From positions 1 through 61,142 of the forward strand of contig JAFGIN010000205.1 of NCBI GenBank assembly GCA_016929595.1: 61,142 nucleotides of DNA, given 5' to 3'. The notes beneath the pieces were generated by a model. That model had not been told where the DNA came from. It did not search any database and saw only the letters and a list, made by a program, of their open reading frames with translations. Below, piece after piece: positions 43,723 through 61,142 of this stretch. Source of the DNA: Chitinispirillaceae bacterium. Its GTDB lineage: Bacteria > Fibrobacterota > Chitinivibrionia > Chitinivibrionales > Chitinispirillaceae. A program made the position numbers and the translations under genes. Every line of letters starts with the position of its first letter. The first letter of the stretch is position 1.

Positions 43723-43993
43723 CGCCAGTGGAACATTAATGGATCCATTTAAATATAATTTGAATATATACATATAAAATGGTTGATTTCAGACTCACAG
43801 ATCCCAGATTATATTTTTTCCCTATCTCACTTCGGCACAGTATATATTTTCGCACTGAAAAAAATCAGCATATCGCGCTTGCTCACAAATAAGAGTTTAA
43901 CGGCTAATTCACAAAAGAATCGTTTAACCCATTTAACAGCAATGCATTAAAAAGATATAACCTGGATGCAAATTTTTACAGGAATTGCCAGAA
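43723..43993. promoter_or_regulatory. presumed promoter region of the secretion-like operon
   Basis: About 270 A+T-rich bases lie between the broken TPR gene and the first adaptor gene. No gene or clear hairpin is seen. The promoter of the five- or six-gene operon beginning at 43994 is most likely here, but I cannot point to confident boxes. Confidence 0.4.
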
Positions 43994-44920
43994 ATGCGAT
44001 TAATTTCACTATTTTTTACAATAATCATCAATTTCGGATTATCCTCAAATGCATTTCTATTCAAATCTCTTCGCGGAGGATTTGTTGAGAATAAAAGAGT
44101 GCCTTTCATTTACATCATCTTCATTTTTGAAATGTTTTTTTTATCAGATTCACTTAACGCACAATCTGAAAATATTTTTTCTATACATGGTATAACCGAG
44201 CCTTACTGCCAGGCAACAATCAGCGCAGAATTCGCCAGTAAAATTGTTCACATATATAGGGACGAAGGTTATACAGTAAAGAAAAATGATACCATTATCG
44301 CTCTTGATTATGAACAAGCTCAACTGGAAGCAGAACGAACAAAAATAATAGCTGAAAGCAAAGCAGAACTTTTCGCTGCTGAAAACCGTTTAAAAATTGC
44401 AAAACTTGATTTTGATGCAACACGCCTGGTATTTGACAGCACACGAGCAATTAGTGAAGAAGACCTGTGGAAAAAAGAGCTTGAATATAATCTCGCCAAA
44501 GCTGAATTTGATAAATTAACCGCAGCGAAAGCAAAAGAAGTAGTTGAACATAAAATTGCCCTTCGAAATTTAGCTCACCATTTTATTCTGGCACCATATG
44601 ATTGTGTTGTTGCGACGCGTTTTCTAAACCTCGCAGAAACATGCAAACCGCAGGAATCTCTTGTAAGAATTGCGGATATTAACCGATGCAGATTTATAGC
44701 ATATGTACCTTCCTCTCACACAAAAAATCTTCAAAAAGGAACAAAGGTTAATTTAGTACTGAATAGTGCTAACGGTGAACTTCCACGCGAAGGAACTGTA
44801 GATTTTATTTCTCCGGTAGTTGATCCATCATGCGGATTACGTACAGTGAAAATTCTTTTTGATAATCAGGATCGTGCAATTCAGCCTGGTATTACCGGCC
44901 AGTTCAAAATAGAACAATAA
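43994..44920 (+). CDS. HlyD/RND-type periplasmic adaptor protein
   Basis: About 308 residues from ATG 43994 (AGGA 11 bases upstream). A second hydrophobic stretch, VPFIYIIFIFEMFFLSDSLNA, looks like the true signal peptide, so GTG 44099 may be the real start. The mature part has a lipoyl-like half (ISAEFASKIVHIYRDEGYTVKKNDTII), a helical hairpin (about 100 residues), the second half (LAPYDCVVATRFLNLAETCKPQESLVRI) and a beta-barrel domain. This is a membrane fusion protein without its own membrane anchor. It opens an operon with two more HlyD-like proteins, a SecA-like ATPase and a TolC-like protein. Confidence 0.85.
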   Translation: MRLISLFFTIIINFGLSSNAFLFKSLRGGFVENKRVPFIYIIFIFEMFFLSDSLNAQSENIFSIHGITEPYCQATISAEFASKIVHIYRDEGYTVKKNDTIIALDYEQAQLEAERTKIIAESKAELFAAENRLKIAKLDFDATRLVFDSTRAISEEDLWKKELEYNLAKAEFDKLTAAKAKEVVEHKIALRNLAHHFILAPYDCVVATRFLNLAETCKPQESLVRIADINRCRFIAYVPSSHTKNLQKGTKVNLVLNSANGELPREGTVDFISPVVDPSCGLRTVKILFDNQDRAIQPGITGQFKIEQ

Positions 44921-44966: not shown

Positions 44967-46811
44967 ATGAATAGTAGTAAAGCTCTTGAACGTTTACAAT
45001 TAATAAATATATTAAGGGAATTTCAGAAAATACGCCAATTCCAGGGTAATGCATCTGAGTTCTGGCAGCTGTTCACAAATGCATTGATTCATCTATGTAA
45101 TGGTCGTTTCGGAATGATTTGTACCAGAAATGTCGCAGGTTGCCGATGGGAAATGCTTGCATCAGGTCCATCCAATAATGATTCGTTAAAATACTCAAAA
45201 ACATTGTTTGATGCTCTTTCTATTGCTTCAGAACAATGTGCTCAATCAGGGTTCGCATTTCTTAAAAGTAATAATGGCTCAATTCTTGCCACAAACCTTC
45301 TTTTCGATACAAACCCGCAGAACAATATTATTCTACTGTATTTGGATCCAATTGATGATATAACAGCACGATTCTATATCGATTCTCTATTATCATTTAA
45401 CGATATTCCCACTCAATATCGCATTCAGAAAAGTGCATATGATTCGTTGATAAAACAGAACCAGCTTACAGGTATTCTCACGCTATCTTTAAAAGTAAAT
45501 GAACACAACCGATTTATTGCTGCTGCAATGACTATCTGCAATGAATTAGCCTCTCGTTTTACATGTGATCTGGTAAGTCTAGGTTGGTATAGCAAAAGTT
45601 ATATTCGGATAAAAGCACTGAGCCATACAAACCATTTTGAAAAAAAAATGGAGGCTATTCAACAGCTTGAACTTGCTATGGAAGAATCAGTCGATCAGGA
45701 TACCGAGATTGTTTACCCTGCACCCAAAGATAATTCATATGTCACTCGGGACCATCATGTTTACACGAGTAACCAGGGTACTTTATTTATGGCTTCTCTT
45801 CCGCTCCGGAAATCAAATCGTATTATCGGAGTCTGCTCGCTTGAACGGTGTACCACATCATTCACTGATTCAGAAGTAAAACAGATCAGAATCGCACTTG
45901 ATCAGATAACTACCCGGATTTCGGAATTAAAACACCATGACCGCTGGTTTGGGGCCCGCCTGGTCGATTGGTTGCTGAGTAAAGCAGCTCTTCTGATCGG
46001 ATATGAGCATATATGGGCAAAACTTGCGGCAATTTCAGGAGCCATTTTTTTTCTTTTTGCTGCTTTTGTGCCAATAAACTACCGTGTCAGCGCCACTATG
46101 ATTTTAAAAACAGATGATATCGCATACATAACTGCGCCCTTTGATGGCTATATCGATTCTGTGTATATACGTCCGGGTGATTTGGTGTCTGAAATAAAAA
46201 CCATATTGACACTGGACAAAAATGATCTGTTGCTTGAAGAGGCTGGTTTACTTGCCGAAAAAAACAGGGAACAACGTGAAATCGAAAAGGCCCTTGCAGC
46301 AGTTGAACTTGCTGATATGGGGATCGCACAGGCCAGGCTTAATGAAGTAACTGCAAAACTTGCTATTACAAGATATAAATTGCAGCAAGCATCAATCCCC
46401 GCTCCATTTGACGGAATAATTGTTGAAGGCGACCTGAGAGAAAAAATCGGTTCACCGGTTAAACAGGGAGACATACTGTTTAAAATAGGCCGAATTGCAA
46501 ATGTATATTCTGAAATAAAAGTACCGGAATCGGAAATACAATATATACTTACCAATTCATCAGGACAAATAGCGTTAGCAAGCCGTCCTCACGAGAAATT
46601 TGATATCAAAGTAACAATTATTGAGCCATCTGCAGTGTCAACACAAAATGATAATGTATTCCTGGCCCGTTCCATAATTACAGACACTGTACCGCAATGG
46701 TTCAGACCAGGAATGACAGGCATTGCTAAAATAAATGCAGGACAAAGAACTTTACTATGGATTATTTCTCACCAGACGATCGACTTTCTCCGTTTGAAAT
46801 TGTGGTGGTAA
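44967..46811 (+). CDS. GAF-domain HlyD-type membrane adaptor
   Basis: The 614-residue product has a cytosolic N-terminal half with a GAF-like domain (about 170-320), a transmembrane helix (351-370), and a HlyD-type periplasmic part with lipoyl halves (ITAPFDGYIDSVYIRPGDLV and IPAPFDGIIVEGDLREKIGSPVKQGDILF) around a helical hairpin. GAF domains bind small ligands, so the adaptor may be gated from the cytosol. The fusion of GAF to a HlyD adaptor is unusual in classical type I systems. The next gene begins 26 bases downstream. Confidence 0.9.
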   Translation: MNSSKALERLQLINILREFQKIRQFQGNASEFWQLFTNALIHLCNGRFGMICTRNVAGCRWEMLASGPSNNDSLKYSKTLFDALSIASEQCAQSGFAFLKSNNGSILATNLLFDTNPQNNIILLYLDPIDDITARFYIDSLLSFNDIPTQYRIQKSAYDSLIKQNQLTGILTLSLKVNEHNRFIAAAMTICNELASRFTCDLVSLGWYSKSYIRIKALSHTNHFEKKMEAIQQLELAMEESVDQDTEIVYPAPKDNSYVTRDHHVYTSNQGTLFMASLPLRKSNRIIGVCSLERCTTSFTDSEVKQIRIALDQITTRISELKHHDRWFGARLVDWLLSKAALLIGYEHIWAKLAAISGAIFFLFAAFVPINYRVSATMILKTDDIAYITAPFDGYIDSVYIRPGDLVSEIKTILTLDKNDLLLEEAGLLAEKNREQREIEKALAAVELADMGIAQARLNEVTAKLAITRYKLQQASIPAPFDGIIVEGDLREKIGSPVKQGDILFKIGRIANVYSEIKVPESEIQYILTNSSGQIALASRPHEKFDIKVTIIEPSAVSTQNDNVFLARSIITDTVPQWFRPGMTGIAKINAGQRTLLWIISHQTIDFLRLKLWW

Positions 46812-46837: not shown

Positions 46838-48994
46838 ATGAGTTCACGTACTAAAATTTTCCATGAATCCTGGTACCAGATTGCGAACCAGCGCATTTAT
46901 CTGCGCTCAAGTGTTCGTATTCGTCGCCAATTGTTCAGAGGAGAACTCTGGTATGTACTTCACGACCCTTTTGCAAACCAGTTTTTCAGATTACGCCGTA
47001 ACAGTTATGAATTCCTTGCCAGGATAAATAAAAATAAAACCATAGAACAGCTATGGAATGAATTACTTGATACTAATCCGGAAAATGCTCCCGGCCAGGG
47101 TGAAATTATAGATCTTCTCGCACAGCTCTATCATGCAAACCTTCTGCATTATGATCTTGCACCCGACAGCATCAAACTCTTTGAAAAATTCAAAAAACGA
47201 CGGCAGAACCTGATTAAATCAAACATTTTAAATATAATGTTCGCACGTTTTCCGTTGTTTGATCCTTACTTTATTCTAAAATTTCTAAATCCGTTAATCA
47301 AAACTCTTATAGGACCTGCAGGTGCATTACTCTGGATACTAGTTGTTGGATTCGGAATTAAAACCGCAATTGACAATTTTTCCACCCTTCAAATACAAAC
47401 AGATGCTATCCTTGCTCCCGAAAACCTGTTTCTTCTCTACATCAGTATAGCCTTTATAAAGATATTTCACGAAGTGGGGCATGCATTCACTGTACATCGT
47501 TATGGCGGAGAAGTACACATAATAGGTATCATGCTTATGATGCTTACCCCCCTTCCATACACAGATGCGACTGCATCCTGGGCATTCAGACGTAAATGGC
47601 AACGAATACTTGTCAGCTCTGCTGGAATGATTTTTGAGCTTTTCGTAGCTGCAATTGCAGTAATGATATGGGCAGGGACCGGTGCAGGACTGGTGCACAC
47701 CCTTGCATATAATATAATATTTACAGCATCTGTATCTACATTGCTCTTTAATATTAACCCATTACTCAGATACGACGGTTACTATATTTTGTCTGACCTG
47801 GTTGGTATTCCAAACCTGCAGAAGCAATCAACACAGCAGATAACCTGGTTCGTTGAACGGTATGCGTTCGGTAAAAAAGATGAAACACCTGTCGCTTCAA
47901 ACACAAAGGAAGCATGGTTGCTCTCTATATATGCAATACTCAGCATCATTTACAAATTTTTTGTTTTCACTGGCATTATGTTATTTGTCGCAAATAAAAT
48001 GCTCTTAATCGCAATTATTATGGCAATCAGTTTTTTGTTCTCATGGGCTTTTATTCCTCTTTTTAACTTTATCAAATATCTTACGAGTAACCCTGGTCTG
48101 AGTCGTGTTCGTGGAAGAGCAATTCGTGTAAGTATTATAGCTGCCGGAACGATTTTTCTTCTTACCTGGTACATCCCGTTTCCATATAGCTTTAAAGCAC
48201 CTGGAGTACTTAAAGCTGTGGGTTATTTTAAAATAGTCAATCCTGCAGAAGGCCGTGTAATACGAATAGATAAAAAATCAGGAAGTACAGTTAAACAGGG
48301 TGATACACTTTTTCTGCTTGAAAACCCTGTTCTTATTAACCAGAGTATAGAAACAAAAGCGGCGCTTCTTCAAGCTGAAATCGGTTTCGACAAAGCACTT
48401 GTCAGCTCACATGCAGATATGGAACCAATGTCAAAGAAGATTCAGGTATATTCACAACGGCTGGAATACCTTCGTAAAAAAATAAAGGCACTGGCGGTCG
48501 AGGCTCCCATTGATGGAATCTGGGTAGCTCCCGATGTGGATGATTTTGTTGGCAGAACAATGCCGCGAGGTACACCCGCAGGCGAATTAATCGATCCTGA
48601 GCAATTCTATTTTGCTTCAGTTATCTCGCAAAATGAAATATCTGAATTATTTGCCTTACAAGTCAAATCAGCTGCGATACGCTTAAGTGGAGAAGCTGGA
48701 AAAAAACTTTTGGTAAAAAATTACACGATCATTCCAGTTGCACAAACAAATCTTCCATCCTCCGCGCTCGGATTCAGTGGAGGTGGAGATGTCGCAGTTA
48801 ATCCAGCAGACAGCAGCGGCCAACGAACACTTGAACCATTCTATGAAGTCAGGGCATTTGTGGAACAGAATAATGCTGTTCAATTACTAAATGGGCGATC
48901 AGGTAGAATACGGTTTTCACTCGGAAATAAACCTATTCTATGGCAAGCATGGCGCAAAGTAAGGCAACTGGTGCAGAAGCACTATCAGGTTTAA
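46838..48994 (+). CDS. PqqD-like / M50 zinc metalloprotease / HlyD fusion protein
   Basis: The 718-residue polytopic protein has a PqqD-like winged-helix N-terminus (about 15-110), an M50 site-2-protease core with zinc motif HEVGH (211-215) and a second ligand region NPLLRYDGYYILSD (307-320), further membrane helices, and a C-terminal HlyD-type part with lipoyl halves (IVNPAEGRVIRIDKKSGSTVKQGDTLF and VEAPIDGIWVAP) around a short hairpin. Similar proteins are labelled putative peptide zinc metalloprotease (YydH-like). All metal ligands are present, so it should be an active intramembrane protease. GGAG lies 5 bases before the ATG. Confidence 0.92.
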   Translation: MSSRTKIFHESWYQIANQRIYLRSSVRIRRQLFRGELWYVLHDPFANQFFRLRRNSYEFLARINKNKTIEQLWNELLDTNPENAPGQGEIIDLLAQLYHANLLHYDLAPDSIKLFEKFKKRRQNLIKSNILNIMFARFPLFDPYFILKFLNPLIKTLIGPAGALLWILVVGFGIKTAIDNFSTLQIQTDAILAPENLFLLYISIAFIKIFHEVGHAFTVHRYGGEVHIIGIMLMMLTPLPYTDATASWAFRRKWQRILVSSAGMIFELFVAAIAVMIWAGTGAGLVHTLAYNIIFTASVSTLLFNINPLLRYDGYYILSDLVGIPNLQKQSTQQITWFVERYAFGKKDETPVASNTKEAWLLSIYAILSIIYKFFVFTGIMLFVANKMLLIAIIMAISFLFSWAFIPLFNFIKYLTSNPGLSRVRGRAIRVSIIAAGTIFLLTWYIPFPYSFKAPGVLKAVGYFKIVNPAEGRVIRIDKKSGSTVKQGDTLFLLENPVLINQSIETKAALLQAEIGFDKALVSSHADMEPMSKKIQVYSQRLEYLRKKIKALAVEAPIDGIWVAPDVDDFVGRTMPRGTPAGELIDPEQFYFASVISQNEISELFALQVKSAAIRLSGEAGKKLLVKNYTIIPVAQTNLPSSALGFSGGGDVAVNPADSSGQRTLEPFYEVRAFVEQNNAVQLLNGRSGRIRFSLGNKPILWQAWRKVRQLVQKHYQV

Positions 48995-49104: not shown

Positions 49105-51090
49105 ATGTCTACAATAACCAGTGATTATCGTCATACATCAATTTACCATTCACCGGAAATTCTGACCGGTCTGAATGCCGCTGTCTACAAATGTGCTGGC
49201 AGATTCCGACGTAAAACAACCGTTCTTACGATGCTTTCAAAACACGCATCTATGATAACGAAAGAAACCTCTTTATACAAGGATTGTTCAGATCGTTCAC
49301 TGCGAGAAAAACTTAATGATTTTAAAATCGTTTTTCGCAGGCGAGATCCCAATTGTAAAGACTGCCTTTTTTCAGCTCTTTCAGCAATCGCTGAGAGTGC
49401 ATATAGAACCTTGGGGATGCGCCCCTTTCATGTACAACTTACCGGTGCTCTTGCACTTTATAATAATTACATCGCAGAAATGGCAACTGGTGAAGGTAAA
49501 ACTCTGACTGCCTCCCTTACAGCAATTCTTCACGGATGGAGCGGTTTTCCCTGTCATATTATTACCGCAAATGACTATCTTGCTGAACGAGATGCTGAAA
49601 AGTTGAATCCATTATATACCTATTGTGGTGTTTCAGTCGGTAGTGTAACTTCAGCTATGGAACGACCACTAAGACGAAGCGGTTATAAGCAGGATATAAC
49701 CTATTCGACGGCAAAAGAAGTTACCGCTGATTTCTTGCGTGACAGAATAGCTCTTGGGGATCTTCAAAAATTTGAACACAGAATTATACGGAACCTTCTC
49801 GACAGTTCTGCAACTAAACGAGAAAGTATCGTAACTAGAGGCCTGCACACTGCTATCATTGATGAAGCAGACAGTCTTCTTATCGATGAAGCAGTTACGC
49901 CATTGATCATTTCTCAACAGCAACCAAATGAAGTTTTCAGCAACGCATGTAAAACAGCATCAATACTCGCCGCAACTCTTGAGCCAGGGAAACATTACAT
50001 AATTAATAAACAATACAGAGAGATCGAAATTCTGCCTGAAGTTGATTTAGGTGAAGTATGTAAATCATCTGCAATTCCACATCAGTTTTCAGGCCGCGGG
50101 TTTCAGCGCGAACTTATTTTACAGGCATTAACAGCACGTGAGTTTTATCATAAAGATAAGCAGTATATCATTCAGGACGATAAGATTGTTATCGTTGACG
50201 AGTTTACCGGGAGAACAATGGCACAACGTTCGTGGAGTGAAGGGCTGCATCAGATGGTTGAAGCAAAAGAGAATCTGCCAATAACTCCACCAAACGAAAC
50301 CCTTGCAAGGTTGAGTTTCCAGCGATATTTTCGATTCTACAGAAACCTTTCAGGAATGACTGGTACAGCATTTGAAGCCGCAGATGAATTGTGGCATGTA
50401 TACAGTTTGCCAGTTGTTCAGATTCCTTCCAATAAACCATGTAAACGGATAATGCTGGAACGTAAATTTTATCCTGATCAGACTACAAAATGGAATGATA
50501 TAGTCAATGAGATCATCGAAATACATACGACAGGGAGACCAGTGCTTATCGGAACGCGTAGTGTTCAGAGCAGCGAGATGCTCGCCGGAAAGCTTTCACA
50601 AAAAGGATACGACTGCAAAGTGATAAATGCAGTCCGTCACCGGGATGAAGCTGCGATAGTTTCAAGAGCCGGTGAGCGTGGAGCAATTACAGTGGCAACA
50701 AATATGGCCGGACGAGGAACAGATATTCTGATTCCACGTGACATTGAAAAAAAAGGAGGACTTCATGTTATCGCAACCGAACTCAATGAATCATACCGTA
50801 TCGACCGGCAGTTATTCGGCAGGGCAGCACGACAAGGAGACAATGGCAGCGCACGTTCTTTTGTCAGTATGGATGACGAGGTACTTAAACAATATGTTTT
50901 TCCTTTTTTCCTGCAAACTGTAACGAAAGCAATTACAGCAAATGCGCCATTTTCTAAATTGATGGCGAATAAAGCTGTCAAACAAGCACAGAACAACGCC
51001 CGTGAAAGGGCTTATAAAAGCCGCAGATCTGTTCAAAAAATGGATACCTGGCTGAAAGACTCATTGACCTTTTCTCATAGTGAATACTAA
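49105..51090 (+). CDS. short SecA-like ATPase
   Basis: The 661-residue product is a SecA paralogue. Walker A is MATGEGKT (126-133) and Walker B IIDEADSLLIDEA (251-263); the second motor domain has VIVDEFTGRTM, NMAGRGTDI and the arginine-finger stretch GRAARQGDNGSARSFVSMDD. The motor and a preprotein-crosslinking region are there. The protein ends soon after (KAVKQAQNNARERAYKSRRSVQKMD), so most of the helical scaffold, the two-helix finger, wing and zinc tail of housekeeping SecA (usually 840-900 residues) are missing. This is probably not the cell's main SecA. It sits between a metalloprotease-adaptor gene and a TolC-like gene, 14 bases from the latter. Confidence 0.93.
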   Translation: MSTITSDYRHTSIYHSPEILTGLNAAVYKCAGRFRRKTTVLTMLSKHASMITKETSLYKDCSDRSLREKLNDFKIVFRRRDPNCKDCLFSALSAIAESAYRTLGMRPFHVQLTGALALYNNYIAEMATGEGKTLTASLTAILHGWSGFPCHIITANDYLAERDAEKLNPLYTYCGVSVGSVTSAMERPLRRSGYKQDITYSTAKEVTADFLRDRIALGDLQKFEHRIIRNLLDSSATKRESIVTRGLHTAIIDEADSLLIDEAVTPLIISQQQPNEVFSNACKTASILAATLEPGKHYIINKQYREIEILPEVDLGEVCKSSAIPHQFSGRGFQRELILQALTAREFYHKDKQYIIQDDKIVIVDEFTGRTMAQRSWSEGLHQMVEAKENLPITPPNETLARLSFQRYFRFYRNLSGMTGTAFEAADELWHVYSLPVVQIPSNKPCKRIMLERKFYPDQTTKWNDIVNEIIEIHTTGRPVLIGTRSVQSSEMLAGKLSQKGYDCKVINAVRHRDEAAIVSRAGERGAITVATNMAGRGTDILIPRDIEKKGGLHVIATELNESYRIDRQLFGRAARQGDNGSARSFVSMDDEVLKQYVFPFFLQTVTKAITANAPFSKLMANKAVKQAQNNARERAYKSRRSVQKMDTWLKDSLTFSHSEY

Positions 51091-51104: not shown

Positions 51105-52943
51105 ATGTATACATTGAAAGACATGAAAAACAGAACAAAAACGATTCACAGAGCACTCCTGGCTATCCTGATCATTTATGCAGTTTCCTGTGCTCAACCG
51201 GGTCAAAGTAATCAATTTGTCATCGACACTATTAACACCTTAAAACAGGATACCATCAGTACAGGAAATACAAGTATACCAGATTCTGTCAGTTCAGATT
51301 CGACATTGTTTTCTGACAGTCAACCAATACTAAATTCTGAGATTCCCACTTTTGACTCCTTAATGTTTTTTATCAATGTCAGTGATGCATATCCTCAACC
51401 AGAAAGAACTGCAAAAAATGATATCGCATCCGAAAGTGTTGATTCAGTCTTTATGACATTGCAGGAAGCTGTTGATAAATTTTTGATTTCTAATCCTGAT
51501 GTTATCCGTGCAAAACTCGAATGGATGGCTGGTAAGGATAAAGAAAGATCGTCATACGGACTTTACGAGCCATCATTAGTTATATCATCAAAACAGGAAA
51601 CAATAAACAGACCTTTGTCGAGGCGTGCTCAATCTGAAAACACATATAAAGGAGGAATAGAAGGGATTTTACCTTCTGCAACTAAATATGATATTAACTT
51701 TTCACTTACCGATATACAAAACCGATTTTATGATAATTCACTCAAGCCAAATACCTTTTCCGGTATTTCTATTACGCAGCCATTGCTTCAGGGACTATGG
51801 TTTGGTAAGCCAATTATTGACCAGAAGATAAGCCGAATCGAGAAAAAATTTTCATTTCAAAAATATAGAGCTACATTGTCGAACAAACTACTTGAACTTG
51901 AAAAAACTTACTGGAAAGTTTGTTTTTCTCAGGAAAAGCTCAATTTCGCACTTGCATCGATTAAAATGGCACAGGAAATCGTTTACGATAGTAAATATCT
52001 TGTTAAAGCCGGAAAAATATCATCATTGGAAGAGATTGAAGCTCAAGCTGGATTAGCGACACGGCTTGCAAATGCAAATGATGTATGTAAAGAACTTTTT
52101 GCTGCAATTAACGAACTGCAATTATTGGTACATAACGGAGAAAAAGGGTATATTCATATTGTAGCATCAACGCCTCTAGAAATTTTGCAATCTGACTCGA
52201 CTGAAAATAGTTCAGAAGCAATGCAATCTTCATTATATGAACTCCAGCCAGAATACCTTATGAAGAAAGCGGAGCTTGAAAAAAGCCGTGTTTCAAAAGA
52301 CTTACAAGCAGACCGCTGTCTTCCTGAATTGAATATCAAAGGGACATTTGGTTATCTGGTAGATGGAAAACAAACCAATATGGCATGGGAAAATTTCTGT
52401 GACCCGGTTTACCGTACACGGAGTGGTATCTTTTCACTTGAAGCAGAATTCAAGATACCTCTTGGAATTGGCTATAAGGAGAAAAACCTTTTATCTGTGG
52501 AATATCGCAAGGTCAGAAGCTCTGAGATTGATCTTAATGAAACCGGTATGCAGCTTAATGAATATCTTACCCTTTCTTATAAACGCCTTTCTCAAATAAG
52601 ATACAATCTCGATAATGCAAAAATAATCATTGAATATAGAACAACCCTTCTCAAGGCTGAATTGGTAAAACAATCAGCGGGGAAAAGTAATTATCGTAAA
52701 ATTTTTGAAATTGAAGAAGAACTTACCAAATCAAAACAATGGGAAATGGAAAACATAATTGAATATAAAAACACAAATGCCGAAATTTCCCGTTTAGCAG
52801 GGAAAACACTTCTTTCAATGAAACTCGAAACTATTAAAGATGGAAAAATCGTGCTGAACCAGAAACTGACCAATGCGCCTAAAAGAGTAACCAGATTTAA
52901 CAATGATCTAACAAAAAAATCTCAATATCCCTCGGATAATTAG
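51105..52943 (+). CDS. TolC-like outer-membrane efflux lipoprotein
   Basis: The 612-residue product has a signal sequence ending in VSC (possible lipid Cys), a low-complexity Ser/Asp-rich linker of about 90 residues, then two OEP repeats with long coiled-coil helices (LLELEKTYWKVCFSQEKLNFALASIKMAQ..) and barrel strands (YDINFSLTDIQNRF, GIFSLEAEFKIPLGIGY). TolC-family trimers form the outer-membrane exit duct of type I secretion and efflux pumps. ATG 51105 or 51123 could be the start; neither has a good ribosome site. It starts 14 bases after the SecA-like gene. Confidence 0.9.
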   Translation: MYTLKDMKNRTKTIHRALLAILIIYAVSCAQPGQSNQFVIDTINTLKQDTISTGNTSIPDSVSSDSTLFSDSQPILNSEIPTFDSLMFFINVSDAYPQPERTAKNDIASESVDSVFMTLQEAVDKFLISNPDVIRAKLEWMAGKDKERSSYGLYEPSLVISSKQETINRPLSRRAQSENTYKGGIEGILPSATKYDINFSLTDIQNRFYDNSLKPNTFSGISITQPLLQGLWFGKPIIDQKISRIEKKFSFQKYRATLSNKLLELEKTYWKVCFSQEKLNFALASIKMAQEIVYDSKYLVKAGKISSLEEIEAQAGLATRLANANDVCKELFAAINELQLLVHNGEKGYIHIVASTPLEILQSDSTENSSEAMQSSLYELQPEYLMKKAELEKSRVSKDLQADRCLPELNIKGTFGYLVDGKQTNMAWENFCDPVYRTRSGIFSLEAEFKIPLGIGYKEKNLLSVEYRKVRSSEIDLNETGMQLNEYLTLSYKRLSQIRYNLDNAKIIIEYRTTLLKAELVKQSAGKSNYRKIFEIEEELTKSKQWEMENIIEYKNTNAEISRLAGKTLLSMKLETIKDGKIVLNQKLTNAPKRVTRFNNDLTKKSQYPSDN

Positions 52944-53029: not shown

Positions 53030-56000
53030 ATGAAACCAAAATCTGAAAAGTTGTTAAAACTCATTTATACTATTTTAAAAATATCGGTAATCCTGCTGTC
53101 TTTAATTTTTTTTAATTGTCAAAACGGAAATCCAAATGCAGATTCTTTTGCGGTTTGGAGTTTTTCCGGATATGTAGTTGACGGTTACACACAAAAACCA
53201 TTATCAACAGTTTCGATAGAATACCTAAATGGAGACGGTATTCCAACCGTAACAACTTCCGGCGATTCCGGTTATTTTTATATCTCTGATCTGCCATTTG
53301 GTGAAAGAACTTTTAAATTTTCATATAAAGATTCCGGAGCCATATCTTATACACAAAAAATTATTATGGCAAGTTCGTTCACAGAATCACGCAGTATCGA
53401 TGGTCTCATTGGAAACACGTCAAGAATTCTTGAACTGTATCCCTTATCGGGATCAGTTAATGGCGTTGTAAATATAAAAGTTTTTCGTTCAGAGAAAGCA
53501 GTAGCAGCGGCAGGAATTCCAATTACACTGAATTATACAGACAGCTCAATGAAAAATATTTCCCCGGTTCGTTTTTCTGTCATCACTGATTCTCTTGGAC
53601 ATTTCTCGTTGAGTGGATTACCTCAAGCACCGGGAGCACAATTAGTCTTGGGAAATATGATTAAAAATCAGTATGTTTATTCTATCGCACCAATCTCGCT
53701 TTCCCAACTATTCAAACAACAGGAAACAACACTGGGAACCATTTATATGACAGCAGCAGATAGCACTCGACCACTACTGGGACAGGTTATATCGAATATG
53801 TTATCAGATGATGGTTTTGGCGTTTCTGGAGCAAAAGTTTCACAGGTACTTTGGTATATTTTGCCGGTAAAGTTAGATTCATCAACAATCACCGTTTCTC
53901 TACAGGGTGCTGGAAATCCTGATATAATTAAATCATTCGCAAATGATACAATTTTCATAAGGCCCCTGAAGAAGTTCTATTACGACTCTCTGGTTACTGT
54001 TACTATCTCCGGTTTGGACAGCAGCAGAAATCTTCACGAATTCCTGCTCGATGGATTGCGGGAATTCAGAACAGAAAAGAAAATAATTTTACCAGTACAA
54101 TCAAATGTTTTGAGCAAAGATGGTTTCGGACTGACAAATGTTGAAACAGACGCTCAGTTATGGTACATTCTTCCTGTTGACACACCATATTCAGACCTCA
54201 GTGTAATAATAAAAGGCGGAGGTAACCCGGAAACAATGATTCGGAATTCCGGAGATACTGTTTATGTAACACCAGTTAAAAAATTCAAATATGATGAATT
54301 AATAACAGTACAAATCACAGGCTTTGACAATACAAATACTCATTTCTCTTTTACTCTTGACAGTACAAAACAATTCAAGACAAAAATGGATCCATTCAAT
54401 CGGCCTGTAGTATCGAATGTTCTCAGCGCAGAAGGATTTGGATTAACAGATGTTTCTGTTGATTCACGTCTCTGGTATATTCTACCAGTTGATACTCCGT
54501 TTTCGGATCTGAAAGCAGTTATATCAGGGGGAGGAAATCCAGACGCACTTATCTTCAATTCAGGAGACACTGTATTTATTAACCCAGTAAAAAATTTCAC
54601 CTTTGACGAAATAGTCACCGTCACTATTTCAGGTCTGGATAACAGCAGATCATTTTTTTCAGTTTCTTTTGATAGCTCACAATCTTTTCATACTGAAAGA
54701 GAGCCATATCCAGTTGCATCAAACACCTGGATATCTGCAGAATCCACTCGTAAAACGTTTAGCCTTAATGATACTATCTGGGTTAAATATTCTCATCTGC
54801 TTGATCCGGATATTAGTAAATATAATTGGCTGACATCATCTGCGACTTCTACAATATATGGATACGGCTCTAAAATCAATGCGAATTGCTGGGTAAAAGC
54901 AGACACACTCTTCATAGTACCGGATCAGCGGCTGGAAATTGATTATAACCAGACAATAGGCTTTAATATCAGCATAGTTTCCGCTGGCAATAAACAATCA
55001 GACACAATAGATTTTATTGCACCTGTGATATCGGATAATTACTACATACGATGGACTAATACCAAAAACGAGCTTGGAAAAATGCGAATGGATTTTGGAA
55101 CATTCGATTCAATTTTAGTTACCTCCAATGCGCCAATTGCAGCGATCAAAGGTATTTCCGGCGTAAGCGGAAAAACCACCCCTCCGGATCTTAGCCTTGA
55201 TAATATAACCATCAGTGGAGATACCATCATTTATAAGCCAGCTCTATATCTTAAACCAGATTCGATTTATGGAATTACGTTTGATGTACTTTTCAAAGAT
55301 GGCACAATGCGATACGGAATTTTTGAAGTCAACTGGAAGACATCACTGAAGATTCAAATTCTTTCTTTTGATAACCGCCTGGGAGGCGACTTCAGGAAAT
55401 TTAAAGCTATAGGGGATAGCTTAACTGTAGCATTTTCAGCACCCATTGATACGTCCATTTCAGCGCCGATTCCATTCAAGACAAATCTTACAGATGTGAA
55501 CAATCGTTCTATCAGAACCATTTCAAAATGGTCATCGACACTAAGAACTGTGACCATTTTTAATGTCGATACATTACCAAGTGCAGATTACGATGCATCG
55601 CCATCATATACCAGAGATGCCCCTGGAACACGCGCTGTTAAATCCATCAGTTTTGATCTATGTACCCAGGATGGAGAGAGAGTTTTTAATTTCACGCCTA
55701 AAAATGAAAATATTGAAATCCACACAGAAAAAGGAATTACTGTTGTCCAGACAAACCTCCTTGCAAATCACAATGAACGTAATCCAGTTGAACGAGGAGA
55801 AGTCCCGGTCGATAATTTTCCTTCGAATGGGATAGTTTCCATTACTTTCAATCGGGAGATCGATACTACCTTGATGATTACAACAGATACCCTGGGTTAT
55901 TCTTCATACATTTCACTGAAAAATGACAGTAGTACAATTCAATCAGCGATTTCTTTTTCTTCGGATTTAAAAACGATTCATTTAACTCCGGTATTACCAT

Positions 56001-56149
56001 TATCTACATCGATAAATTACTACCTGGTAATTAAAAGTATACCTGGAGCAGGTATTGCCCATGCCCGAGCAATAAATAAAAACTCAGGACGGTTCAGTGG
56101 TAAGGGTTTAAGCAATGTGCTTCTGGATATTCCATTCAGAGCAAAATGA
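53030..56149 (+). CDS. giant Ig-like lipoprotein with three tandem 104-residue repeats
   Basis: The 1039-residue product has a signal peptide ending IFFNC (lipoprotein Cys likely), two carboxypeptidase-regulatory-like beta domains (SGYVVDGYTQKPLSTVSIEY; VNGVVNIKVFRSEKA), and three tandem repeats of about 104 residues. Each repeat has the pattern SNxLSxDGFG..LWYILPV..GGGNPE..GDTVxVxPVKKF..DExVTVxISG. A Big_5-like Ig domain follows near the C-terminus. No enzymatic motif is seen. It is the last gene of the operon, 86 bases after the TolC-like gene, and could be a surface cargo or a secretion partner. Confidence 0.82.
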   Translation: MKPKSEKLLKLIYTILKISVILLSLIFFNCQNGNPNADSFAVWSFSGYVVDGYTQKPLSTVSIEYLNGDGIPTVTTSGDSGYFYISDLPFGERTFKFSYKDSGAISYTQKIIMASSFTESRSIDGLIGNTSRILELYPLSGSVNGVVNIKVFRSEKAVAAAGIPITLNYTDSSMKNISPVRFSVITDSLGHFSLSGLPQAPGAQLVLGNMIKNQYVYSIAPISLSQLFKQQETTLGTIYMTAADSTRPLLGQVISNMLSDDGFGVSGAKVSQVLWYILPVKLDSSTITVSLQGAGNPDIIKSFANDTIFIRPLKKFYYDSLVTVTISGLDSSRNLHEFLLDGLREFRTEKKIILPVQSNVLSKDGFGLTNVETDAQLWYILPVDTPYSDLSVIIKGGGNPETMIRNSGDTVYVTPVKKFKYDELITVQITGFDNTNTHFSFTLDSTKQFKTKMDPFNRPVVSNVLSAEGFGLTDVSVDSRLWYILPVDTPFSDLKAVISGGGNPDALIFNSGDTVFINPVKNFTFDEIVTVTISGLDNSRSFFSVSFDSSQSFHTEREPYPVASNTWISAESTRKTFSLNDTIWVKYSHLLDPDISKYNWLTSSATSTIYGYGSKINANCWVKADTLFIVPDQRLEIDYNQTIGFNISIVSAGNKQSDTIDFIAPVISDNYYIRWTNTKNELGKMRMDFGTFDSILVTSNAPIAAIKGISGVSGKTTPPDLSLDNITISGDTIIYKPALYLKPDSIYGITFDVLFKDGTMRYGIFEVNWKTSLKIQILSFDNRLGGDFRKFKAIGDSLTVAFSAPIDTSISAPIPFKTNLTDVNNRSIRTISKWSSTLRTVTIFNVDTLPSADYDASPSYTRDAPGTRAVKSISFDLCTQDGERVFNFTPKNENIEIHTEKGITVVQTNLLANHNERNPVERGEVPVDNFPSNGIVSITFNREIDTTLMITTDTLGYSSYISLKNDSSTIQSAISFSSDLKTIHLTPVLPLSTSINYYLVIKSIPGAGIAHARAINKNSGRFSGKGLSNVLLDIPFRAK
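53788..54700. repeat. three in-frame tandem repeats of about 310 bp
   Basis: Unit starts near 53788, 54098 and 54410, spaced about 310-312 bases apart. They encode the LWYILPVDTP / GGGNP / SGDTVxxxPVK units in the giant lipoprotein. The second and third copies are closer to each other than to the first. Confidence 0.75.
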
Positions 56150-56792: not shown

Positions 56793-57515
56793 TCAACTCC
56801 CCTGCTCCATCTTATCCAGATACAAACCCAGGTTTCGCATGGAATGAAGATGAAGATAAATTAATTCGAGCTCATCACTTTTAAGTAATGTATGAGCATT
56901 TTCTGCACTTAATGCTTTTAACTTTGCTCTATTAACAGCAAAGAAACCGCCAAGAGTAATCCGTTCTCCACTAGCTGCTTTTATCTGTGCATTCATCGGT
57001 TCAAGAAGGTCAAGTTCCAGAAGTTTTTTACAAAACATTTTAGTTCTATTAAACTGAATCTGATATTCCTTTAAAAAACCGAGCATGTTCTTCAGATAAA
57101 CAGTCTGTTCACCTTCCGAATCAAATAGACGTTCACCAATACCTTCCTGGTTACACCCGGTGAAAGATTCATCTATACAAAGAGTCAAATTGTTATCATT
57201 ACCACTCGAAAAGATAAACGGATATCTTCTCAAAAACGCCGGTATATATCGCGCGGTCAGTTTATTATCATCCGATACAAAAAGGTTTTCTTTATCCTTT
57301 ACACCTAGGATAACCATTGGAATGAGCGTATCATCTTTACCGGTAAAAATAATCGAAAACTCCTGTGCAAGATTAGGAAACTCAATTGCGGTAACCGGAA
57401 CGGAATTAAGTTCTTTTGAAAAACTAAAATCGTGCCCTGTCTTAACCGACCAGTTTCGATGTCTGATTTTTGAAACCGGTTGAGCATTTTCGTAGATCAT
57501 TAGCTGTTTTGCCAT
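56793..57515 (-). CDS. SapC family protein
   Basis: The 240-residue soluble product shows the SapC pattern: an N-terminal VPVTAIEFPNLAQEFSIIF and PMVILGVKDKENLFV, then YIPAFLRRYPFIFS and a C-terminal ALSAENAHTLLKSDELELIYLHLHSMRNL. The name comes from a gene beside Campylobacter S-layer genes; the molecular role is unknown. It lies 83 bases after the giant RTX protein and 74 before DUF3467 on the same strand, suggesting an RTX-sapC-DUF3467 operon. SapC genes are often found next to large secreted repeat proteins. Confidence 0.92.
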   Translation of the reverse strand: MAKQLMIYENAQPVSKIRHRNWSVKTGHDFSFSKELNSVPVTAIEFPNLAQEFSIIFTGKDDTLIPMVILGVKDKENLFVSDDNKLTARYIPAFLRRYPFIFSSGNDNNLTLCIDESFTGCNQEGIGERLFDSEGEQTVYLKNMLGFLKEYQIQFNRTKMFCKKLLELDLLEPMNAQIKAASGERITLGGFFAVNRAKLKALSAENAHTLLKSDELELIYLHLHSMRNLGLYLDKMEQGS

Positions 57516-57598: not shown

Positions 57599-60500
57599 CT
57601 ACGGAAGAATCGAAACCAGCGTTCCATCCTCCATGAATTTTTTCAACCAATCATTTGCACTGACAGTTGCAGATGAAACCGGAAGAGGCGAACCTTCAAA
57701 AGAAACAACATTCCATGCCTCGATCGCAGTTTCTACCATGTCTGTTCCCTCACTGGAAGTAACTTGCTCAATATCATCTGTTCCCCGTACTATAACAGTA
57801 TTGCTGAAGTCAGATGTCGAAACTTCAGTCCTGTTATCTTCTTCATCATTAACAGGTGTAATAAGCAATGTATCATCAGATACTAAAATAACACTATCCG
57901 AAGATTCTGCGCTGATTACATCATTACCTTCATCCCATACTACCTGATCATCACCAAGACCTGTGTTTATTCTATCATCTCCAACTCCACTGATAATCAG
58001 ATCATCTCCAGCCCCCCCATACACGATATCGTCTCCAGCTCCTCCCAGTAACAGATCCTCACCAGTGCCGCCTTCAACAAGATCAATTCCTTCACCACCA
58101 TCAATGATGTCATTTCCGCCATTACCACGCAGTACATCATCTCCCCCCCTACCATGGAACTCGTTATCACTATCATTACCGCGCATGTAATCGAAGAACT
58201 CAGTCCCAACAGCCCCATCAACATTTAACAATGTGTCAATACTTCCGGTACCATCCTCGTTTACTGTTCCAGTGCTGTTGTTTTCAAGTTCGAGATTTAT
58301 ACCAATTGTGGCACCCGAGAAGAAAATGATATCCTGTCCTGCAAATCCATTCAGACTATCACTTCCAGCTCCGCCGTCAATGAAATCATCTCCTTCACCA
58401 CCAATAATCGTATCATCACCAGCATTACCATAGATCAGATCATCACCACCGAGCGCATCGATATAATCGTTGCCACCGAGCCCGATTATGATATTGTTAC
58501 CATTATTTCCAGTAATGGTATCATCAAAGTCAGATCCCTTTACATTCTCAAAACCGGTAAGTGTATCGACGCTGCCATTTCCATCGTCGTCAGCTCTTCC
58601 GGCTGAGAGATTAACAATCGCACCAACATTATTGTATAAACCTGAGTAATCTGCAGTATCTGAACCATCACCACCAACAAGAGTATCTACAGCACTTCCA
58701 CCCCGTAAAGTATCATTTCCACTCTGCCCATAAACTGACAAAGTACTATCTGTCCGTGAGCCATCAAAAAAGTCATCGCCTTCACCAAGATATGCTTCTA
58801 CCTGAGTAATTCCTGTGAGGCTCCCGACTCGCACATCATCGTCTTCAGAGCCTGTGGTCAGTTTGATCATATCATCAGAGCCATTAGTTTCGACATAAAT
58901 ACTATTCAATACACCATCAGCCTCAATATCAACCACAGCAACACTGACTAATTGATTCATCATTACGTTGTTTGCATTATCCATATCAGCGGAAATATCA
59001 AGTACATCTCTGCCATCACCAAGAGTAACAACATCCACTCCATCTCCCATATTCCAGGAAACAAGGTCGTCACCGCCTCCGGCATCTATTGTATCATGGC
59101 CCAAACCACCATAAATTGTGTTATTGTGCTGATTACCATAAAGAGTATCAGCAAGTGAAGTTCCCCTTATAACGTCAAATCCAGTAACGATGTCATTGCC
59201 ACCAAAAGCATCTATTGACATATCATTAAATGTATATTCTGCAATCCCGTCGATTTTATAATAGTATGCCTGCCGATGATCCCAGTCATTCCATGCACCG
59301 TCAACTGTATCCCAGTTGATACATGTGAAATCTTCACCTCCAGTATAATTCGGTACAGCAGAATTATTTGGTTCACCAGTACTCCAGTGACGATAGGTAG
59401 CCGTCTCTCCACTTATCCACTCCCAGGAGCCTTCCGTAACATTGTCAGTTAATCCAATCCAGTATCTTCCGCTGTTACCGAATACCTGGCGTAACCAGGC
59501 CTCTTCAGAAGCGTCATTAATTGTTACCAGATGTCCACCATTTAATACCGCATTATCTTCAGCATTCTGCCAGGAGCCGGAAGTACCGGATGAAACAACG
59601 CCATAGAGGTGCCCCGTATCCGGATTATAATACACAGGTCCTGCTTCATCACCAGATCCAAGCCTTGTCAGGACACCAACCGCACCAGCCTCAACCGCTT
59701 CAGGGTTAAATACGGTATCATGTCCTTCACCACCGATGATTATATCATTGCCGCGTCCTCCACCTGCCAGATCATCACCTTCGCCTCCATCAACGTAATC
59801 TTCACCAGATCCGCCATCAATAGTATCGTTGCCAGCCTGTCCATATATTGTGTCATTAGCATCATTAGCCAGGTCCGGAGCAGAAATATCATCGTAACTA
59901 TAATATCCGTAAATTATATCGTCTCCAGCACCGCCTGAAATTACATCATTACCAGCACCACCGGAAATCCGGTCATTTCCACTACCGCCATCGATAGTGT
60001 CGTTATCAGCTGCCCGCTCAATATCAGTAAAACTATCTGTGGTATCACCACCATAGATTACATCGTTCCCGTCAAGACCCGAAATAGTGTCAGCGCCGCC
60101 CAGCCCGACAAGTACATTGTCAATTGCATCACCGGTCAATGTATCAGTGTATTGTGACCCGATTACATTCTCGACATTTACAATGGTATCAACACTGCCA
60201 TAGCCATCATCAGCAGCAAGCCCCGTATGTAAATTAACTATTACACCAGATCCGCTGTTGAGATCTGAATAAGCTATCGTATCGATTCCATCACCACCAT
60301 CAAGAAGGTCGTAACGCGTTCCACCAGACAGCGTGTCATTTCCGGCCTGACCATACACCTTGAGAATTCCTCCCGACAGTGTACCCCTGAAAAGGTCATC
60401 ACCACCACCAAGGTTAACTTTTACATATTGAAGACCTCCACCTGATATACTGCTGGCAATCACCGTATCAGCATAATTGCCGGTGGTAATATCTATAATG

Positions 60501-61142
60501 TCATCAGCCCCGCCATATGCCAGTGTTATCTCAGATGTCAGTGAACTCGATGTATATACACTCACCGTGGTAACACTAAGGTTTTCATAAACATTTATCA
60601 AGTTACTTTCATTGACAGCTCCGCTAATTTTGATAGTATCAGAACCATTACCCGGAGTCACATAATCATTATCATCACCCGAATTCCATTCAATGATGTC
60701 ATTACCTTCCTCACCATTGATTGTATCGTCACCACTTTCACCAATGATATAATCTACGCCAGCACCACCAAATATTTCATCATCACCGGAACCACCATGA
60801 AGAACATCGTTCCCACCATTACCAATAATGATATCACTTCCAGCCCCACCCTCGATCATATTTACATTTTCATCACCCTCAATTATATCATCGAACTGTG
60901 TTCCATTAACATTTTCAACATCCTTAATAAAATCATTGCCACCAAAAGCATCTATTGACAAATCACTAAGTGGATATTCTGCAATCCCGTCGATTTTATA
61001 ATAGTATGCCTGCCGATGATCCCAGTCATTCCACGCACCGTCAACTGCATCCCAATTGACACATGTATAGTCTTCACCTCCATAATAATTCGGTACAGCA
61101 GAATTATTTGGTTCACCGGAAGCCCAGTGGCGATAGGCAGCC
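57599..61142 (-). CDS. giant RTX-repeat protein with C-type lectin domains (partial, open at right edge)
   Basis: The frame runs leftward from beyond the window; the TTG at 60961 is not a start because coding continues in phase to the edge. The visible part (about 1180 residues) has many GGxGxDxI calcium-binding nonapeptides in several blocks and a C-type lectin domain (about 59227-59640) with WIGLTDNVTEGSWEW, an EPNNS motif and WNDW. A second lectin copy enters at the right edge. EPN in this fold usually means mannose/GlcNAc-type binding. One lectin-plus-RTX unit repeats every 1740 bases (580 residues). The C-terminal 90 residues have few RTX repeats and may hold the export signal. Confidence 0.93.
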   Translation of the reverse strand, partial: AAYRHWASGEPNNSAVPNYYGGEDYTCVNWDAVDGAWNDWDHRQAYYYKIDGIAEYPLSDLSIDAFGGNDFIKDVENVNGTQFDDIIEGDENVNMIEGGAGSDIIIGNGGNDVLHGGSGDDEIFGGAGVDYIIGESGDDTINGEEGNDIIEWNSGDDNDYVTPGNGSDTIKISGAVNESNLINVYENLSVTTVSVYTSSSLTSEITLAYGGADDIIDITTGNYADTVIASSISGGGLQYVKVNLGGGDDLFRGTLSGGILKVYGQAGNDTLSGGTRYDLLDGGDGIDTIAYSDLNSGSGVIVNLHTGLAADDGYGSVDTIVNVENVIGSQYTDTLTGDAIDNVLVGLGGADTISGLDGNDVIYGGDTTDSFTDIERAADNDTIDGGSGNDRISGGAGNDVISGGAGDDIIYGYYSYDDISAPDLANDANDTIYGQAGNDTIDGGSGEDYVDGGEGDDLAGGGRGNDIIIGGEGHDTVFNPEAVEAGAVGVLTRLGSGDEAGPVYYNPDTGHLYGVVSSGTSGSWQNAEDNAVLNGGHLVTINDASEEAWLRQVFGNSGRYWIGLTDNVTEGSWEWISGETATYRHWSTGEPNNSAVPNYTGGEDFTCINWDTVDGAWNDWDHRQAYYYKIDGIAEYTFNDMSIDAFGGNDIVTGFDVIRGTSLADTLYGNQHNNTIYGGLGHDTIDAGGGDDLVSWNMGDGVDVVTLGDGRDVLDISADMDNANNVMMNQLVSVAVVDIEADGVLNSIYVETNGSDDMIKLTTGSEDDDVRVGSLTGITQVEAYLGEGDDFFDGSRTDSTLSVYGQSGNDTLRGGSAVDTLVGGDGSDTADYSGLYNNVGAIVNLSAGRADDDGNGSVDTLTGFENVKGSDFDDTITGNNGNNIIIGLGGNDYIDALGGDDLIYGNAGDDTIIGGEGDDFIDGGAGSDSLNGFAGQDIIFFSGATIGINLELENNSTGTVNEDGTGSIDTLLNVDGAVGTEFFDYMRGNDSDNEFHGRGGDDVLRGNGGNDIIDGGEGIDLVEGGTGEDLLLGGAGDDIVYGGAGDDLIISGVGDDRINTGLGDDQVVWDEGNDVISAESSDSVILVSDDTLLITPVNDEEDNRTEVSTSDFSNTVIVRGTDDIEQVTSSEGTDMVETAIEAWNVVSFEGSPLPVSSATVSANDWLKKFMEDGTLVSILP
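59202..61142. repeat. 580-residue in-frame repeat module in the RTX lectin gene
   Basis: Bases 59202-59402 and 60942-61142 match at about 90% (19 differences counted in 201 bases) at an offset of exactly 1740 bases (580 codons). The second copy continues out of the window. This recent duplication covers the end of the lectin domain and the following SIDAFGGND segment; the rest of the period is more diverged. Confidence 0.85.

Follow-up and report, generated by a model that had tools for sequence, protein, structure and literature searches.

A short SecA-like ATPase, the probable motor of a dedicated exporter of giant surface proteins

We identified a short SecA-like protein, encoded in a 61,142-nucleotide stretch of DNA (the window) from a Chitinispirillaceae bacterium, that probably drives the export of giant surface proteins through a dedicated machinery, of which no description was found in the literature searched. 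In our preferred reading, to which we give a probability of roughly 0.58, this protein is the ATPase of an exporter specialised in giant surface or secreted proteins, and this SecA-type motor stands where type I secretion has its ABC pump. A more complete version is tentative, at slightly less than even odds: a SecA motor without its C-domain would be docked on a PqqD-M50-HlyD fusion protein and TolC and would define a widespread class of Gram-negative secretion system. Neither SecYEG nor an ABC transporter would take part, and the exported LEPR-XLL proteins would range from several thousand to perhaps 18,000 residues. These readings start from the observed anatomy of the gene, the loss of its C-terminal domains, its clade, its linkage to other genes and its co-occurrence with giant LEPR genes.

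The open reading frame starts with ATG, has no internal stops and encodes 661 amino acids, in which Pfam detected SecA_DEAD (4e-91), P-loop_SecA (5e-48) and SecA_PP_bind (6e-22); no match to the wing/scaffold domain SecA_SW (PF07516) was found in the product. The sequence and structure matches both end at residue ~604-612 of Bacillus subtilis SecA. The chain thus retains about 40 residues from the first helix of the scaffold and has neither the rest of this domain nor the wing, the two-helix finger or the zinc tail. Walker A (TGEGKT), the DEAD box, GMTGT, motif V and motif VI are all intact. The preliminary description of this DNA, which had seen a SecA paralogue ending after the motor, with every ATPase motif in place and with the finger, wing and zinc tail missing, is thus borne out. 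Its estimate of about 200 missing residues holds against ordinary SecA (~840-900 aa) and fails against the genome's own SecA, which shares ~37% identity with the short protein and exceeds it by 366 residues. A frameshift or a lost C-domain, named there as a possible refutation, was rejected as the cause of the short end: tblastn with the C-domain of the genome's own SecA, covering all frames near position 51090, gave a best E of 1.4 in the window, and no such domain was found at E <= 1e-3 in 80 related loci.

The structure prediction of the protein alone, which the preliminary description had proposed, gave an AlphaFold2 model (pLDDT 87.7, pTM 0.86) with the SecA fold up to the counterpart of residue ~612 of the B. 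subtilis protein (6itc; Z 42.5, rmsd 3.0 over 587 residues). TM-scores were 0.80 and 0.79 to the SecY-bound, substrate-engaged structures 6itc and 5eul and about 0.70 to free SecA; the model is thus nearer to the SecY-bound form, and the clamp that grips a passing chain has been retained. The DEAD, P-loop and preprotein cross-linking domains together with the intact helicase motifs place the protein in the SecA superfamily. It scored 568.7 bits against the SecA1 equivalog TIGR00963 (cut-off 800) and 375-496 bits against the SecA2 equivalog models (cut-offs 725-1100), below the threshold in each case.

The genome encodes four proteins with a SecA-DEAD domain, including the short one. The housekeeping SecA (contig C184) has 1027 residues and a zinc tail, and two further SecA-like paralogues have 796 and 979 residues. 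The possibility that the short protein is the organism's only SecA, the second refutation foreseen, was therefore rejected. SecA_SW was matched by Pfam in the 796-residue paralogue, which was also considered as the closest kin of the short SecA and rejected, as it belongs to a different clade. Its gene (in the region L006:4432-12465; G000 contig C84, 22000-41900) adjoins type VI secretion genes (VasJ/ImpA, VipA, VipB and Hcp), and its clade includes proteins from five more genomes of the same order, which have no HlyD neighbours. The 979-residue protein (L007:10033-12972; G000 contig C170) is very divergent, with a branch length of ~4 and no recognised wing/scaffold domain, and has a possible relative in genome G033 (contig C540).

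A tree of 78 proteins, made with a quick method that kept insertion columns and included two accessory SecA sequences, grouped the short SecAs in one clade (SH-aLRT 100, stem 0.63), separate from SecA1, SecA2 and the group of 800-residue paralogues. The accessory SecA2 sequences were placed with Firmicutes SecA1, away from the short SecA; with the equivalog scores, this led us to reject membership in SecA2. Like SecA1, the short SecA has a DEAD motor and a preprotein clamp, but unlike SecA1 it has no wing, finger or zinc tail and little of the scaffold, forms its own clade, carries an NBD1 insertion of ~20 residues and is linked to M50-HlyD. It resembles SecA2 (TIGR03714, TIGR04221, NF012136, TIGR04397) in being a second SecA with specialised cargo, whereas SecA2 keeps its C-domain. 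In the 71 relatives with a recognised motif VI, the chain ends 67-92 residues (median 83) after this motif, compared with 306-361 in SecA1, ~265 in the two accessory SecA2 proteins and ~255 in the 800-residue paralogues. The tail is conserved, with Q629 found in all members and R640, D647 and F656 in more than 90%. The insertion lies in the loop from the LRD motif to the DEAD box, which has a median length of 42 residues versus 22 in the other SecAs tested. The suspicion that this protein does not act like an ordinary SecA is strongly supported by its own clade, its fixed early end, the NBD1 insertion and the absence of a C-domain from the cassette.

The motor motifs are intact in nearly all short SecAs, with PGEGKT in place of TGEGKT in a mainly beta/gamma subset. 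Three Burkholderiales cassettes (L101, L093 and L115) contain a degenerate SecA-like gene, in which Walker A and most of the other motifs are no longer present. M50-HlyD is intact in these three, LEPR-XLL genes lie nearby and the SecA-like copies are presumably pseudo-ATPases. The clade was found in at least about ten named phyla among the matches listed. Short SecAs of six loci (L047-L052) are annotated in public records as DEAD/DEAH box helicase, translocase, SecA, prepilin peptidase or hypothetical protein.

In the window, the short SecA gene belongs to a same-strand row of genes spaced 14 to 110 nt apart, which runs from HlyD1 through GAF-HlyD, PqqD-M50-HlyD, SecA and TolC to a large repeat protein (Table 1). 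The TolC gene begins 15 nt past the stop codon of SecA. The opposite strand carries the RTX/lectin gene, then SapC and DUF3467. No ABC transporter was detected with Pfam in this operon. The repeat protein is a putative accessory surface protein.

Table 1. Genes of the export cassette and its neighbourhood in the window (G numbers are genomes).
Feature	Position	Strand	Annotation
HlyD-type periplasmic adaptor (HlyD1)	43985..44920	+	HlyD_D23/HlyD_3, RND_mfp; orthologue in the same place in G016, G033 and G011
GAF-HlyD adaptor	44967..46811	+	GAF plus HlyD_D23/HlyD_3; in 85/90 loci scanned
PqqD-like/M50/HlyD fusion	46838..48994	+	Conserved HExxH (H211, E212, H215) and D313
Short SecA-like ATPase, 661 aa	49105..51090	+	NBD1, preprotein clamp, NBD2, partial first scaffold helix
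TolC-family outer-membrane channel	51105..52943	+	OEP 1.6e-16, type_I_sec_TolC; orthologue in G016 and G033
CarboxypepD_reg/Big_5 repeat protein	53030..56149	+	Lipoprotein-like N-terminus; homologues in G016 and G033
DUF3467 protein, 99 aa	56419..56718	-	PF11950 4.3e-24; DUF3467 matches in 24/90 loci
SapC-family protein	56793..57515	-	PF07277 1e-69; also in G016 and in 18/90 loci
RTX/C-type lectin protein	57599..61142	-	N-terminus off contig; 15 HemolysinCabind stretches, Lectin_C

A scan of named genomes for the M50-HlyD family, from which 80 of at least 575 confirmed relatives were kept, showed that the cassette is widespread. The matches listed come from Elusimicrobia, Gemmatimonadetes, Spirochaetales, Verrucomicrobia, Planctomycetes, Acidobacteria, Nitrospira, Rokubacteria, desulfobacterial groups and Proteobacteria, and many of these records are metagenome bins. 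A short SecA lies directly downstream of M50-HlyD in 81 of the 84 loci with room on the contig, across many phyla; the three loci with room and no SecA are L072, L073 and L094. Among 151 genomes of the host phylum, 27 encode both proteins, none encodes the short SecA alone, and two (G135 and G011) encode M50-HlyD alone, on contigs that stop before or inside SecA (Fisher p = 8e-28, uncorrected for relatedness). The preliminary description had proposed the neighbouring HlyD and M50-HlyD proteins as partners, and near-perfect genomic linkage (81/84 loci; 27/27 genomes with the short SecA) supports this proposal. The core of HlyD1, GAF-HlyD, M50-HlyD and SecA recurs in three relatives, in two of them with TolC. 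When SecA alone was used as a query, the same core was found in all six of the best plasmid matches opened, which are alphaproteobacterial cassettes. TolC is in the locus in 45 of 90 loci. An ABC-transporter signature within 9 kb, in the surroundings of the cassette, was detected in one of the 90, at a distance of 6.6 kb; an unlinked ABC exporter may lie elsewhere in the cassette genomes. The most sampled genus of the phylum (probably Fibrobacter; L166:113-18325 and L167-L176) has a minimal unit composed of a giant LEPR-XLL gene, M50-HlyD and the short SecA; GAF-HlyD is encoded on the opposite strand or at a different place.

The fusion protein upstream of SecA combines three parts. A PqqD-like domain lies at its N-terminal end (PF05402, above the cut-off in locus L049); such domains bind leader peptides in peptide-modification systems. 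The M50 part has H211, E212, H215 and D313 invariant across 41 M50-HlyD sequences and scores 17.7 bits against Pfam Peptidase_M50 (gathering threshold 27.2), so it would be a divergent M50 member at best. The AlphaFold2 model of the fusion (pLDDT 85.7) matches MacA, AcrA and MexA in its HlyD part, which is the part that the VIA-align list covers. The closest resemblance of the M50 part is to M50 proteins of RiPP systems (the daptide HExxH and the YydH/LiaK epipeptide metalloproteases; NF041824, NF058609): its best score is against NF041824, far below the curated cut-off, and RiPP systems share the PqqD-like domain found at the N-terminus of the fusion. Unlike the RiPP proteins, the fusion is joined to HlyD, paired with SecA and encoded beside giant proteins rather than short peptides.

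The adjacent RTX/lectin protein is the probable cargo in the window. Its reading frame is open to the contig end, with the N-terminus beyond it, and a search for the remainder of the gene on the other contigs of the genome returned self matches only. In the four of the six alphaproteobacterial plasmids that have an annotated giant, the gene adjacent to the cassette encodes a protein of 8.8-12.7k residues, by record coordinates, with an N-terminal LEPR-XLL domain (NCBIfam NF012209, LEPR-8K; the name describes the motif only), and the same domain was found at the N-terminus of a giant protein in genome G087. LEPR-XLL proteins were found in 22 of 26 cassette genomes and in none of 14 well-known control genomes. 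Counted per genome, with adjacency to the cassette read for some, their frames reach 18,012 residues. In the host phylum, 17 genomes have the LEPR motif in ORFs of at least 1500 residues and all are cassette-positive, compared with 0 of 122 cassette-negative genomes. Matches of ~20 bits in small ORFs of relatives were treated as chance and left outside the giant count; when these are counted in, the association with the cassette persists (p = 2e-10). It is important to note that these p-values are inflated by the relatedness of the phylum genomes, and the spread over phyla is the better argument. For 13 giant LEPR genes with coordinates, the distance from the motif to the start of M50-HlyD, downstream on the same strand, is 14-23 kb, about one giant gene length; where the DNA was read, M50-HlyD comes next and SecA after it. 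In the window's own genome, no LEPR-XLL was found at the usual threshold, the giant gene running off the contig; a 13-bit match at a loose threshold lay inside a small ORF and was taken as chance. The LEPR-XLL link would therefore extend to the window's own giant by analogy. The preliminary description had missed the probable cargo (the RTX/lectin protein and the LEPR-XLL giants), TolC as the exit duct, the DUF3467 and SapC proteins, and how widely the cassette is distributed.

The cassette matched none of the named secretion systems tested here, and its parts belong to known families. As in type I secretion (HlyB-HlyD-TolC), there are HlyD adaptors, TolC and RTX-repeat and giant adhesin-like cargo; unlike in type I secretion, there is no ABC exporter but a SecA-type ATPase with an M50-HlyD fusion, and the giant neighbours bear an N-terminal LEPR-XLL. 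An ~8000-residue Vibrio protein with LEPR-XLL and RTX domains is on record (PMC10868602). In the open-access literature searched, LEPR-XLL was found in two passing mentions, this one included, neither tied to the cassette, and no description of the cassette itself was found; preprints and most subscription journals were outside this search.

From the gene content, the simplest machine may be a duct of the type I kind that is powered at the inner membrane by a SecA motor seated on M50-HlyD. The docking, the identity of the channel, the independence from SecYEG and every binding and transport step of such a machine are what we infer here. The SecA-like protein has kept the helicase-like motor and the preprotein clamp and shed the C-domain (wing, two-helix finger, IRA1 region and zinc tail), which in ordinary SecA serves self-regulation and the working of SecYEG. 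It would sit on the cytoplasmic face of the PqqD-M50-HlyD fusion, and the N-terminal LEPR-XLL of the cargo would be recognised by the PqqD-like domain, the motor or both. The motor would then thread the unfolded chain through a pore of the membrane part of M50-HlyD, possibly with GAF-HlyD, and the HlyD domains and TolC would allow a one-step, type I-like passage across the envelope. The M50 active site could trim the leader, and DUF3467 and SapC may be cargo-specific helpers.

Several facts count against the exporter reading. The chief awkward ones are the SecA without ATPase motifs in the three Burkholderiales cassettes, so that catalysis is either not needed everywhere or these copies are decaying, and the half of the loci that have no linked TolC. 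In addition, there are the three loci without SecA, the minimal form in the phylum, in which only the giant, M50-HlyD and SecA stand side by side, and the failure to find LEPR-XLL in the window's own genome.

The main rival is that SecYEG is the channel: as an accessory SecA, the short protein would still drive the cargo through SecYEG, and M50-HlyD, the adaptors and TolC would handle its onward passage from the inner membrane or periplasm. We consider this unlikely. The clamp and NBD architecture of the short SecA does match SecY-bound SecA structures, other accessory SecA proteins (SecA2) work through SecY, and to our knowledge every bacterium has SecYEG. However, the two-helix finger, the wing and most of the scaffold are missing from the entire clade, and none of the 11 LEPR N-termini examined has a Sec-like hydrophobic stretch (best 13-residue hydrophobicity mean -1.3 to 1.4, compared with 2.5-2.7 in three exported cassette proteins). 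The E. coli N-terminal fragment SecA-N68 (N609, PDB 5k9t) ends at nearly the same point; it is a protease or cloning product, whereas the short SecA is a natural family with its own insertion and conserved tail. PMC5456053 reports high ATPase activity for N68, with the C34 part restraining it in E. coli SecA, and the legend of its Fig. 7 gives the fragments alone as having no translocation activity.

A second rival, which we regard as improbable, makes the short SecA a cytoplasmic unfoldase/holdase or a regulator that keeps the giants soluble, with export driven by the proton motive force or by folding outside. SecA has chaperone activity in general, and a role of this kind would suit the persistence of presumably ATPase-dead copies in the three Burkholderiales cassettes, but nearly all members have kept their motor motifs, and the cassettes show no recurring ABC ATPase. 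That the protein is a truncated, decaying or mis-assembled SecA with no role of its own has its shortness in its favour and is refuted by the comparative data, as 71 members from many phyla end at the same point, their last residues are conserved, no lost C-domain lies nearby and all belong to one clade.

If the short SecA is the ATPase of a dedicated exporter, the cassette would be a secretion system that couples a Sec motor with an envelope duct of the type I kind; we found no description of such an architecture. It would have gone unrecognised because its genes are annotated as helicase, translocase, SecA, prepilin peptidase or hypothetical protein, and this on rhizobial and roseobacterial plasmids as well as in Fibrobacterota, Planctomycetes, Verrucomicrobia, Nitrospira and Burkholderiales. 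It would also answer the question of how the LEPR-XLL giants, among the largest bacterial proteins, leave the cell. Finally, the short SecA would provide a natural test of the role of the SecA C-domain, as a motor that evolved without the finger, the wing and the regulatory region.
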